In this document: positions 2,808 to 8,957 of the stretch, in pieces | How positions within the stretch are numbered: position 1 is the stretch's first letter | Layout: every line of letters starts with the position of its first letter | Assembly (NCBI RefSeq): GCF_004343305.1 | Contig: NZ_SMAF01000015.1 | Span: 1-64,000 of the forward strand | Origin: Pseudofulvimonas gallinarii | GTDB lineage: Bacteria; Pseudomonadota; Gammaproteobacteria; Xanthomonadales; UBA2363 | Direction: 5' to 3' | DNA length: 64,000 nt | Made by a program: the position numbers and the translations under genes | Notes under the pieces: model-generated | Databases searched by the model: none | Told to the model about the DNA's origin: nothing | Seen by the model: the letters and a program-made list of their open reading frames with translations, nothing else

Positions 2808-3731
2808 ATGGCCCAGCTCGCGTCGCACAGGAGCCTGCATGTCCTGCTGGTCGCAGTGTTCGCCCTCGTCGCCGCGGCAAGGGTGGCCGCCTCGGATGTG
2901 CTCACCCTCGGCCGGATCTCCGACGATCCACGCAACCATTACGCACAGCTCAAGCCCCTGCTCGACTACGTCGTCCCGCGCATGCGCGACGTCGGTATCC
3001 GCCAGGGCCGCATCCTGATGGCCCGCGACGCACGCCAGATGGCCAATTACCTGCGCCGGGGCAGCGTCGACTGGGTGACGGAGACGCCGGCCATGGCCGT
3101 CGAGCTGCGCAACCTCACTGGCGCGCAGGCCATGCTGCTGACCGAGCGCAGCGGCGTCAGCGCCTACCGGAGTTTCTTCTTCGTCCGGCGCGACAGCGGC
3201 ATCCATTCGCTGGAGGGGCTGTCCGGACGCAGCATCGCCTTCGAACATGTGGCATCCACCAGCGCCTATCTCGTTCCCGTCATCGAACTTTTGCAGAACG
3301 GTCTTCGCCTGGAGCCGTTGACCGCGATCGGCGACGCTCCGCAGGGCCAGGCGGTCGGCTACCTGTTCTCGCGCTCGGAAGCGAACACCGCGATCTGGGT
3401 GGCGAAAGGCCTGGTCAGCGCCGGCGTCATCAGCAGCCTGGGCTGGGACAACCCGCGCACGCTGCCAGAAAGCGTGAAGAGCGAGCTGCAGGTCATCCAC
3501 GAAACCCGGGCGATGCCGCGCGGCCTGGAGCTGGTCCGCGCCGACCTCGACCGACGCGTCCGTGAACGGCTGCGGCAGCTGCTGCTGGCGGCCGCCGACG
3601 ATCCCGACGCCGCCGATGCAATGCGCGAGTTCTTCGGCGCCACCCGTTTCCTGCCACTGGACGACGTCCACGAACTGCAGCTGGAACGCCTGCGCGACGG
3701 TCTCGTGCGGGTGCACCGGGAGGTGGAATGA
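2808..3731 (+). CDS. PhnD-like periplasmic binding protein (receptor for adjacent cyclase)
   Basis: 307 residues with a cleavable-looking signal peptide (hydrophobic residues about 9-28, then a small-residue cleavage region). The rest resembles the phosphate/phosphonate-type substrate-binding fold: an N-terminal lobe with the RISDDPRNHYAQLKPLLDYV start, then DWVTETPAMAVELRN and SLEGLSGRSIAFEH segments typical of PhnD/SsuA-like proteins. No ABC permease or ATPase is next to it. Instead its stop overlaps the ATG of a membrane diguanylate cyclase by 4 nt (ATGA). The arrangement matches the XAC2383-XAC2382 receptor/cyclase pair described from Xanthomonas citri, so it is inferred to be a ligand sensor rather than a transport protein. 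The ligand is unknown. Confidence 0.85.
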   Translation: MAQLASHRSLHVLLVAVFALVAAARVAASDVLTLGRISDDPRNHYAQLKPLLDYVVPRMRDVGIRQGRILMARDARQMANYLRRGSVDWVTETPAMAVELRNLTGAQAMLLTERSGVSAYRSFFFVRRDSGIHSLEGLSGRSIAFEHVASTSAYLVPVIELLQNGLRLEPLTAIGDAPQGQAVGYLFSRSEANTAIWVAKGLVSAGVISSLGWDNPRTLPESVKSELQVIHETRAMPRGLELVRADLDRRVRERLRQLLLAAADDPDAADAMREFFGATRFLPLDDVHELQLERLRDGLVRVHREVE

Positions 3732-5065
3732 TCGCCGGCAAGGGACTGCGCCGCCGCGTCCTGGTCGCCAGCACCGCGATCACGCTGGTGATCCTCGGCG
3801 CCCTGTTCCTGCTGCTGATGCAGGAACGCAGCAGCCGGCGCGAGGTGCTTGCCCTCAACAGCGAAGTGCAGACCCAGCTGGTATCGCAGGTCGCACAGGC
3901 CCACGGCATCGCCCTGATCCGCCACCTCGCCGACGCGTTGACAAACGACCTCTACTATTTCGATCTGCGCTCCATCGGCGAGCAGCTGGCGGCTACGCTG
4001 CGGCAGCCGCCGATGACCGCGGCGCTGGTATTCGACAGCCAGGGCCGCGTCGTGCACGACGGCAGCCATGACATCTCCACGTACGGATCCTCGCTCAGCC
4101 TGGACCTGGTCAAGGCCGCGCTGGCCAGCGACGAAGTCCAGGTCCAGCGCGATGACGGCGTCATCACCGCGGCGCTGCGCATCCGCATCGGCGACGAAGT
4201 GCTCGGTGGCGTGCTGACGCGGTTCGGACTGGACGAGTTGAACCACACCGTTGCCAGCGGCAACCAGCGCCTCTCGGCGACGCTGGAGCATGCATCGCGG
4301 CAGCGCATCGGCAGCCTCACGCTCCTGCTGGCCTTCAGCACCGTGCTGGCGCTGGCCTCGGGCTGGATCATCCAGCGCTGGATCGTCCGGCCGATCCAGC
4401 GCCTGGCGACGGTCGCGCGGGAGATCGAGGCCGGGCAGTACGGCGACTACCAGCTGGACAGCGGCCGTCGCGACGAGATCGGCGAGCTCGAGCGCGTCTT
4501 CGAACGCATGAGCCAGCGCATTGCGGAAACCCATCGCAGCGTGGCGCGCAAGGCTTATCAGGACAAGCTGACGGGCCTGCCCAACCGGCGCGCCTTCGAC
4601 GAGGCACTGGCCGAACACGTCGCCCGCGCCAGGGCCGAGGGATCGCGTTTCGCCTTGATGTTCCTCGACGTGGACAACCTCAAGCAGGTCAATGACACCA
4701 TCGGCCACGATGCCGGTGACCGCGCGTTGATCCGTTTCGCGCTGCTCGCCGAACGCAGCCTGGAACAGCATTCCGGCGGCAGCGCCTGGCTGGCGCGAAT
4801 CGGTGGCGACGAATTCGCCGTGCTGGCGCGCGACGAGCCCTTGCCCGACAAGGCGCTGGCGCAGGCCGAAGCCCTGATGCAGCGCATTCGCGCCAGCAGC
4901 GATGCCGACCACACCGCGCTCGGCGCGTCGATCGGCATCGCCGTCTATCCAACGCACGCCACGGATGCCAGTGAACTGCTGCGCTGCGCCGACCACGCGA
5001 TGTACCGCGCCAAACAGCTGGGCAAGAACCAGATCCAGATCTCCGCTTGCACGCCGACGCCGTGA
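3728..5065 (+). CDS. Membrane diguanylate cyclase (HAMP-GGDEF)
   Basis: 445 residues. Domain order: a transmembrane helix at about residues 10-30, a periplasmic region of about 160 residues, a second helix at about 198-220, a HAMP linker (starting near RWIVRPIQRLATVAREIEAG), then a GGDEF catalytic domain with an intact GGDEF motif at 359-363 and the DKLTGLPNRRAF start. It should make c-di-GMP from two GTP. The RxxD inhibitory I-site normally placed five residues before GGDEF is absent (GGSA there), so product inhibition through that site is not expected. It is translationally coupled to the upstream periplasmic receptor, which probably contacts the periplasmic domain and controls output. Confidence 0.93.
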   Translation: MIAGKGLRRRVLVASTAITLVILGALFLLLMQERSSRREVLALNSEVQTQLVSQVAQAHGIALIRHLADALTNDLYYFDLRSIGEQLAATLRQPPMTAALVFDSQGRVVHDGSHDISTYGSSLSLDLVKAALASDEVQVQRDDGVITAALRIRIGDEVLGGVLTRFGLDELNHTVASGNQRLSATLEHASRQRIGSLTLLLAFSTVLALASGWIIQRWIVRPIQRLATVAREIEAGQYGDYQLDSGRRDEIGELERVFERMSQRIAETHRSVARKAYQDKLTGLPNRRAFDEALAEHVARARAEGSRFALMFLDVDNLKQVNDTIGHDAGDRALIRFALLAERSLEQHSGGSAWLARIGGDEFAVLARDEPLPDKALAQAEALMQRIRASSDADHTALGASIGIAVYPTHATDASELLRCADHAMYRAKQLGKNQIQISACTPTP

Positions 5066-6086: not shown

Positions 6087-8957
6087 TCAGATCGAACTGA
6101 TGCCCTTGAAGGGCGGTAGCACGTCCAGCCCGCTTTCCTCGCGCAGTGCCTGCCGCGAACGCTCCACCCTGGCCGGATCAGGTGGCGACTTCCCCAGGTG
6201 CGCGGCGTGTTCGGCGATCAGCAGGTCCACCTGCCACAACGGCGCCGCGTCGGGCACCTCGAGCGCCACGGCGAGCCGCTGGCGCGCACGCTCCAGATCC
6301 TCGAGCCGGTCACGATCCGGCACCTGCACCAGCTCGGTCCAGAGAAGGTGGACGCGGGCGCGCGCCGTTCGCGGGCTGTCCTCGCCGACCTGCGCCACAT
6401 AGGTCTCGAGCGCGTTGGTGAAATGGACCGCCGCTTCCCGCGCCTGTCCTTCCAGCAGCGCCAGCCGCCCGACCGCATCCTCCATCAGCGGATCGAACTG
6501 GTCGGCAGTCAGCTGGCGCAGCTCGCGCATCTCGGCATAGGCGCGATCCAGCACCTCCCGCGCTTCACTGAAACGGCCCAGCTCGACCAGTGCGGCGGCG
6601 TGGACGCTGCCGAGGACCGCGGTTTCGAACGACGCACCCTCCGTTCGCTCTTGCAGCCACGCCATGCCCTCCTCGATCTCCGGCAGTGCCTCGGCCGCGC
6701 GCAGGCTGGCGATCATCAGGCGCGGACGAACCCCTTTCGCCACCAGCACGCGGTCCTTCTCGACCACGGCACCGGAGGCCTCCATGAACTGCAGGTTGTG
6801 ATCGACCAGCTCGAGCGCCTGCCGGTAGCGGCCGATTCCCATCAGCGCCTGTGCCATCTGGCTGCGTACGATGGTGGTGCGGTTGTGGCCTTCGCCGAAT
6901 ATCTGCTCCATCTCCGGCAGCGCCTGTGCATAGGCCTCCACCGCACGGGCCGGTTTGCCCATGGTCAGGTGCGCCAGCGCGCGACTGGTCTGGATGACCA
7001 GCAGGTTGACCTTCGACGTCGATGGATCCTCCAGGAGGATCCGCTCGGCGATGTCGAACTGCTCGATGGCCTCAGGCCCGCGGCCGATGCGCAAGAGCAT
7101 ATGGGCGTAGTCGCTGCGTCGAATGGCGCGGCGCCGCGGCGGGGCATGGGCGTCATTGCTGGCGTCAAGCACATCCTGGTACAGCGGTTCGGCTTCGGCC
7201 GGGTGACCGGAACTGGCCAAGGCGTCGGCCAGGATGCCCTTGAAGATGAATCGCCAGTGCGCGGCTTTGACCGACGCGTCGTCGCCGACCAGCGCCAACG
7301 CCTCCTCCGCCAGCCCGATGGCTTCCTCGTAGCCATAAAGCTCGAGCCTGACGTAGCCGACCGTCGCCAGGGTCTGCAGGTAATCGTCCGGCGCCACAGC
7401 GCGCCACGGTCGCTGCAACTGCAGGGCCACGTCCAGCAACCGCAACGACTCCTCGTAGCGGCCAAGGCTGCGATAGACATCGGCCAGTTCGGTCAGCAGC
7501 ACGGCGCGGGACGCGGGGTCGTCGGCGAACTGGCGGTCGATGCGCTCAGCTGCACCATCCAGCAGCTCCGCCACCGTGAGGGTCTGCCCTTCCGTCTCCT
7601 CCAGGTGGTTGGCGGAAAACAGCTCGCGCATGAAACCGAGGATCTTCTCGCTGCGCAGCTGCTGCTGCCGCTCTGCCTGGAACCATTGCCAGGCGAACAA
7701 CAGCGACACCGCGAGTGCGGCCGCCAGTATGCCCGTCACGGCCACCGGGAGCCGGTTGCGGCGGAGGAACTTGCGGATCCGGTAGGCGGTACCCAGCCGT
7801 CGCGCGCGGATTGGCCGGTTGTCCAGCCAGTTGCGCAGGTCATCGGCCAGTTCGCGCGCGGAACCGTAGCGGTCGCCCGGCTGGAACGCGAGCGCCTTGG
7901 CGAGGATGCTGCCGAGATCGCCATTGAGCACGGCGGCAACGCGTTGCGGCGACGTGCCGCGAAGTCCGGCGCGCCGCTTTCTCGCGGCCTCGTCCTGTGG
8001 ACCGCTGCCGCCCGGCTGCGAAAGCCCCTCCTCACCCGGACGTGCCCGAGGCGCTTCCAACGGCTCGCCACTGAGCAGCTCGAACAGCACCGCGCCCAGC
8101 TGGTAGACATCGGTCGCCGTCGTAATGGCCTCGCCGCTGCGTTGCTCGGGCGCTGCGTAGGCTGGCGTCATGATCAGGGTGGACGCTTCGCTGGACGCCG
8201 TTTCGTCCATCAGCTTGGCGATGCCGAAATCGAGCAGCCGCGGCCGGCCTTCGGCATCGACGAGGATGTTGGCCGGCTTGATGTCGCGATGGACGACCAG
8301 CGCCTGGTGCGCGAACTGCACCGCGGCGCAGACCGGCAGCATCAGGCGCACGCGGTCCTCGATGCCGAGGCGCTGGCGGTCGCACCAGCGCGTGATCGTT
8401 TCGCCTTCGACGAACTCCATCGCCAGCCAGGACAGGCCTGATCCGGTGACGCCGCCATCGACAAGATGGGCGATGTTGGGATGATTGAGGCGCGCCAGGA
8501 TCTGCCGCTCGCGCCCGAAACGCCGCAGCCAGTCCGCCCTGCTTTCGAGCATCAGCTTGATCGCGACCGTCTGTTCGAAGCCGCCCTCGCAGCGTTCGCC
8601 TCGCCAGACTTCTCCCATTCCACCGCGACCGATGCACTCGATCAGGCGATAGGCACCGACCCGACCGTCGGGAACCGCCAGTCCGCCCAGCGTGGCGTCG
8701 CCACGCCCGCCCGCGGGAACGGTGCGGGTGATGGCGTCGGCGCGTGCAAGCAGGCGCTGTACGCGGTCGCGCAACTCGCTGTCCTGCCCGCAGTGCTCGG
8801 ACAGCCAGCGATCACGGTCGCCGATGTCGACATCCAGGCCCTGCCTGGCCATCCGCAGCGCACGCGCGTCCAGCGCGTCCGACGGCCGCTCGCGATCACC
8901 GGACCGGCTTTCCACGCATCCAGACTGACCGGCCTCGCCGCCGCGGCGCTCACCCAC
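6087..8957 (-). CDS. Membrane serine/threonine kinase with TPR-rich C-terminus
   Basis: 956 residues from a GTG start preceded by GGGAG. A PknB-type kinase domain spans about 103-380: glycine loop GRGGMGEVW (110-118), ATP lysine in VAIKLM (134), catalytic HRDIKPAN (223-230) and DFG (243-245), then APE. One transmembrane helix lies at about 402-425, and the remaining 530 residues form repeated helical hairpins of tetratricopeptide type. The layout (cytoplasmic kinase, one helix, large extracytoplasmic TPR region) is common in Lysobacterales. Residues 1-100 form a short helical region before the kinase. All catalytic residues are present, so it should be active. Targets are unknown; an FHA phosphothreonine reader occurs at 62.4-63.1 kb but is not linked. 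Confidence 0.93.

Follow-up and report, generated by a model that had tools for sequence, protein, structure and literature searches.

A PhnD-type receptor and cyclase pair of the kind described from Xanthomonas, with an enzyme that keeps the synthesis half alone in Pseudofulvimonas

In Xanthomonas citri, the receptor XAC2383 is encoded beside the cyclase XAC2382 (Teixeira et al. 2018, J Biol Chem 293:10767), and the ligand-bound receptor reportedly inhibits the cyclase. Two further systems combine a membrane GGDEF protein with a binding or partner protein. YfiN (DgcN) is a cyclase without I-sites that is held down by its periplasmic partner YfiR (PMC10127611). MbaA of Vibrio cholerae, which has SGDEF and EVL domains, has been argued both to make and to break c-di-GMP (PMC8079147).

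The window analyzed in this study, i.e., the whole stretch of 64,000 nucleotides that forms positions 1 to 64,000 of the forward strand of Pseudofulvimonas gallinarii contig NZ_SMAF01000015.1, contained a receptor-cyclase pair of the type already described from Xanthomonas, and the enzyme of this genus keeps the synthesis half alone. The features of the pair are collected in Table 1, and residue numbers given for the cyclase are those of the window's protein. Upstream, the pair was flanked by sucD and sucC, located at 464-2565 on the minus strand and divergent to it. Downstream, an alpha/beta hydrolase gene was followed by a gene encoding a Ser/Thr protein kinase with TPR repeats (6087-8957), both on the minus strand, the latter convergent with the cyclase gene beyond the hydrolase gene. 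The gene sucC adjoined the pair in each of the three genomes known for the window's genus and in no other locus read; this restriction of the sucC/sucD neighborhood indicated that the position of the pair is genus-specific. Scans for promoters and terminators returned nothing on the plus strand.

Table 1. Features of the receptor-cyclase pair in the window
Feature	Coordinates	Strand	Details
PhnD-family periplasmic receptor gene	2808..3731	+	307 aa, ATG start
Probable Sec signal peptide, residues 1-28, boundary inferred	2808..2891	+	hydrophobic helix 4-25 in model; 5ub3 aligns from residue 29
S150-T151-S152 at helix start	3255..3263	+	aligns with ASTSSHL of phosphite-binding PtxB; model helix 151-163
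SD-like GGGAGG of cyclase, within receptor gene	3718..3723	+	read from sequence
ATGA stop/start overlap, 4 nt	3728..3731	+	read from sequence
Membrane diguanylate cyclase gene	3728..5065	+	445 aa, ATG start; Cache-HAMP-GGDEF, without EAL
Periplasmic Cache-like domain, residues about 40-190, between membrane helices	3845..4297	+	PAS/Cache-like strand order in model; family alignment
HAMP, residues 216-266	4373..4525	+	PF00672 E 2.8e-11
GGDEF domain, residues 276-435	4553..5032	+	PF00990 E 6.7e-41; GGDEF motif 4802-4816

The first-pass annotation of this DNA had described a PhnD-type binding protein whose gene overlaps the cyclase gene by 4 nt, and both statements were confirmed, the former by a PF12974 match (Pfam, E 2.8e-42) and the latter by the ATGA read at the junction. 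The overlap was exactly 4 nt in 74 of the 79 pairs examined in the order, although the receptors have diverged, with whole-length identities to the window's receptor of 38-57% across 39 aligned relatives; judged from these sequences, the overlap is not a product of chance. An SD-like 4-mer lay 4-14 nt ahead of the partner's start in 43 of the 74 pairs with the 4-nt overlap, against 8.8% of random receptor-gene sites, and in 41 of the same 74 pairs the receptor ended in E-V-E. Given such sites within the receptor gene, the conserved tail may reflect the ribosome site of the partner as much as the protein.

The best sequence match of the receptor in the PDB was 5ub3 (E 1.7e-84, residues 29-307), which is identified as XAC2383 in the literature (PMC10942540). 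Comparison of folds, the check that had been suggested against XAC2383, agreed with this, as the AlphaFold2 model of the receptor (mean pLDDT 95.9) retrieved 5ub3_B at Foldseek rank 1, with a TM score of 0.92 over the target and 49% identity. The closest folds were 5ub3 and 5ub7, whose PDB titles name XAC2383 with chloride and with ATP as ligands. Assignment of the receptor as PhnD proper of phosphonate importers was rejected, with a TIGR03431 score of 63.9 against a cut-off of 261.1 bits. The S150-T151-S152 stretch presumably forms an oxyanion cradle, with a role as in PtxB-type proteins; S150 was kept in 78 of 78 receptors, and T151 and S152 each in 76. Because this stretch corresponds in the alignment to the start of the ligand-side helix in PtxB, and at least 76 of the 78 receptors retain it, a phosphate-bearing compound is the likely ligand, as far as sequence can indicate it.

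The downstream protein had been described as a two-helix HAMP-GGDEF cyclase. The HAMP domain, the GGDEF domain, and the two helices were all found, but the description had left unnamed a Cache-like domain between the helices. In the AlphaFold2 model (mean pLDDT 91.8, pTM 0.57), long helices at residues 7-76 and 169-234 enclosed a strand-rich domain of PAS/Cache type. Pfam made no Cache call in the window's own cyclase at E 0.01 (CHASE8 gave E 0.15) and called sCache_3_2 in 31 of 40 aligned partners; a Cache domain is predicted in the window's cyclase by homology and by the model only. Foldseek searches with the cyclase mostly matched the GGDEF domain and listed no solved Cache structure, so that the Cache fold was barely tested by them. 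Six Cache residues (N73, D79, D103, G106, D111, and G112) were identical in 15 of 15 aligned partners, one of them a histidine kinase, and a signature common even to that partner would fit a docking face kept while the output changes. In the GGDEF domain, the catalytic positions D314, N322, D323, and G359-F363 were kept. Its best matches were partners of this family and not the other GGDEF domains of the genome, and a domain swapped in from another cyclase was rejected.

The absence of the RxxD feedback site was part of the same description and was correct: the residues at -9 and -6 before the GGDEF motif were G and A (GGSAWLARI-GGDEF). The further suggestion, that output might for this reason be set by the ligand alone, did not hold. 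RxxD was found in none of the 79 partners examined in the order, in none of 78 complete named pairs (from the best 80 of 332 relatives, a set that overlaps the 79 partners), and in only 5 of the 14 canonical GGDEF domains of this genome, being absent in the other 9. The missing site was rejected as a special trait of the window's cyclase; since it is generally absent in the order, it marks no special property of the enzyme and supports no conclusion that the ligand alone sets the output. By contrast, R at -9 and D at -6 were present in each of the four GGDEF partners that came from outside the order, which indicated that the loss is old and shared in the order and not family-wide.

The distribution of the EAL domain was read from a survey of the order, in which the receptor was found in 136 of 398 genomes, including 40 positives among 121 related genomes. 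Eighty-one loci were read: the window, 40 from the 121-genome survey (minus the window, plus a named X. sacchari plasmid), and 40 that were selected by genus from the remaining 96. Receptor and partner adjoined in 79 of the 81; the two loci dropped were L043, with a broken receptor match, and L064, at a contig end, while L044, with a receptor truncated at the end of its contig, contributed its partner alone to the counts. The partner was a GGDEF-EAL protein of about 700-720 residues in 74 of the 79 loci, and the EAL catalytic residues were at least 97% conserved in these long partners. A short partner without EAL (445-466 residues) occurred in the other five, namely in the window, in its two congeners, and in two genomes that belong to a different family. 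Every genome of the window's genus (3 of 3) had the EAL-less form, and in the other family with the short form the pair was present in 1 of 59 genomes sampled. A scan of named pairs, in which an alignment query returned 332 relatives and the best 80 were kept (X. citri not among them), gave the long form in 78 of 78 complete pairs, in this set that overlaps the survey. A search of a contig collection with the single receptor as query gave no matches.

The window's cyclase ended at residue 445, after the GGDEF domain, with EAL absent. No EAL remnant was detected between 4801 and 64000 of the window, and the remaining four short loci had none either (best E 0.16). Relocation of the EAL domain elsewhere in the genome was also rejected, as the seven EAL domains of the genome were 29-41% identical to the EAL of this family (maximum 40.6%), against 45-76% among six long partners. 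The pair appears to be a synthesis-only version of a make-or-break sensor. Literature searches for a PhnD-type receptor with a cyclase, and searches for papers that cite the X. citri work, listed no report of the EAL-less variant, which is weak evidence of novelty because subscription papers mostly fell outside this scope.

A class-level search matched 10 of 369 genomes, and all six loci outside the order were read. Four had GGDEF-EAL partners, one had a hybrid histidine kinase, and one was without a partner; PAS was also present in 3 of the 3 GGDEF-EAL partners scanned with Pfam. The histidine kinase (L236:2698-4749) was a Cache-HAMP hybrid that followed the receptor in place of the cyclase. 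At the locus without a downstream signaling partner (L241, in genome G540), the receptor was a distant relative and a sodium:alanine symporter gene came next. An assembly titled Bacillus subtilis (L216, JAHREJ010000037.1) carried a Stenotrophomonas-type receptor with 55% identity and is probably mislabelled or contaminated.

The correspondence with XAC2383-XAC2382 that had been claimed for the pair was upheld for the sequence and fold of the receptor and for the adjoining cyclase, but not for the EAL domain of the usual partner, which is absent here. The likeness covers an orthologous-type receptor, an adjoining membrane cyclase of Cache-HAMP-GGDEF order, and the gene overlap, the last measured in the nearest compared relatives of XAC2383. 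These relatives, the receptors of L061 and L106, were 85% identical to 5ub3, and their partners were 705-aa proteins with EAL, whereas the window's partner stops after GGDEF. From these two partners, we infer that XAC2382 is itself a GGDEF-EAL protein. The parallel drawn with NspS-MbaA likewise stood in part: a binding protein gene lies directly upstream of that of a membrane GGDEF protein in both, but NspS is a binding protein of the polyamine type and comes from a different Pfam family, and MbaA has an EAL-type domain where the window's cyclase has none. In the Vibrio system, a periplasmic contact sets c-di-GMP; the counterpart contact in the window's pair is proposed, and without EAL it would act on synthesis only. 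YfiN is likewise an inner-membrane cyclase without I-sites that is controlled by a periplasmic partner protein. The top NCBIfam match of the window's cyclase was NF007423 (YfiN), but membership of the YfiN/DgcN family was rejected at 169.5 bits against a cut-off of 325, and the partner here is a PhnD-family receptor and not YfiR. The binding proteins PtxB, PhnD, ArrX, and AioX resemble the window's receptor in fold and in the STS stretch. PtxB and PhnD serve importers, whereas the window's receptor is without one.

PF12974 proteins carry an ABC-transport name, and some Cache domains bind ligands directly. On that basis the receptor could be read as an ABC importer's binding protein, either orphaned or moonlighting, with the cyclase sensing something else through its own Cache domain, a reading that we regard as highly improbable. 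As the first-pass annotation had stated, no ABC genes flanked the pair (neighboring ORFs, Pfam), and the permease that could have spoken against a signaling role was not found elsewhere. In the whole genome, listed as 100% complete in 57 contigs, the window's receptor was the only PF12974 protein and the PhnE profile had a single match, at 52.6 against a cut-off of 216.7 bits; this sole PhnE-like (MetI-like) permease, judged from the surrounding ORFs, is part of a MetNIQ-type operon, which includes a binding protein of its own. The PhnD equivalog score given above and the persistence of the pair while the partner's output varies among GGDEF, GGDEF-EAL, PAS-GGDEF-EAL, and hybrid histidine kinase also argue against an orphan importer protein. 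Another reading, that the cyclase is catalytically dead or a scaffold only, its GGDEF domain decaying after loss of EAL, draws on sequence drift. The median identity to long partners was 42.6% for the short-form GGDEF domains and 53.6% for the receptors, against 65.2% and 59.9%, respectively, among the long forms. In a regression on the long rows, the GGDEF domains of the window and its congeners were less like long partners than the receptor predicts, with residuals of -3.6 to -3.9 sd, and that of L112 was at -3.5 sd, so that four of the five short rows fell under all 73 long rows; the fifth, L110, was at only -1.3 sd (rank 6 of 73). However, the catalytic and nucleotide-binding positions were all kept in the window's GGDEF domain, the GGDEF profile match still stood at E 6.7e-41, and the Cache residuals of the window's genus (-1.9 to -2.2 sd) were also lower than expected, so that the effect is not on the enzyme alone and lineage-wide speed accounts for part of the GGDEF drift. 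Loss of catalysis is therefore very doubtful.

The direction of change was considered on the trees, of which the receptor tree was built with a quick search method. The EAL-less form could be the older state, with EAL gained by the long partners, since in the midpoint-rooted partner tree the window's clade branches close to the root, albeit with weak support (70/91), and constraint of the five short rows to one clade was not rejected in the AU test (p-AU 0.433), which leaves them free to form one. This is improbable, however: of the five class-level relatives from outside the order that have a partner downstream, four carry GGDEF-EAL, and on the best tree the other group of short partners was nested among the long forms. 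On that tree, made from the shared partner region, two changes were needed, with the starred branches forcing two, but the result of the one-clade constraint meant that two independent EAL losses were not upheld. We suggest tentatively, as a reading of some plausibility, that the receptor module was re-wired from a GGDEF-EAL enzyme to a one-way cyclase, perhaps twice in the order, that the GGDEF domain afterwards evolved more quickly, as though released from an interface with EAL, and that, with an outgroup receptor that feeds a hybrid histidine kinase, receptor and Cache domain together would be a transferable input module.

Functionally, it is highly probable that the pair is a two-protein sensor of the XAC2383/XAC2382 kind, in which the receptor would bind a small anion, dock on the Cache domain and alter GGDEF activity, and in which loss of EAL leaves only the rate of synthesis to be set. 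The receptor would be exported, and the small anion on which it would close is probably a compound that bears phosphate, the class being suggested by the conserved STS stretch. Open or closed, it would dock on the Cache-like domain of the cyclase, and the change would pass through the HAMP helices to raise or lower the activity of the GGDEF dimer. Receptor closure and GGDEF activity are expected from the respective families, whereas the docking and the sign of its effect are our proposals. By analogy with the X. citri pair, the ligand-loaded receptor more likely inhibits than activates the cyclase. Coupled translation would allow both partners to be made together. The ancestral C-terminal EAL domain would have gone from the window's genus, the direction of evolution being taken from the comparisons above, and with EAL gone the pair could set the rate of c-di-GMP synthesis only and could not act as a make/break switch.

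If the re-wiring took place as suggested, the ligand would now only tune synthesis and would no longer be able to drive breakdown of c-di-GMP. In other respects, the pair is an ordinary member of the described kind; comparison of its naturally occurring short and long forms, however, can show which part the EAL half plays in the control of c-di-GMP by the ligand.
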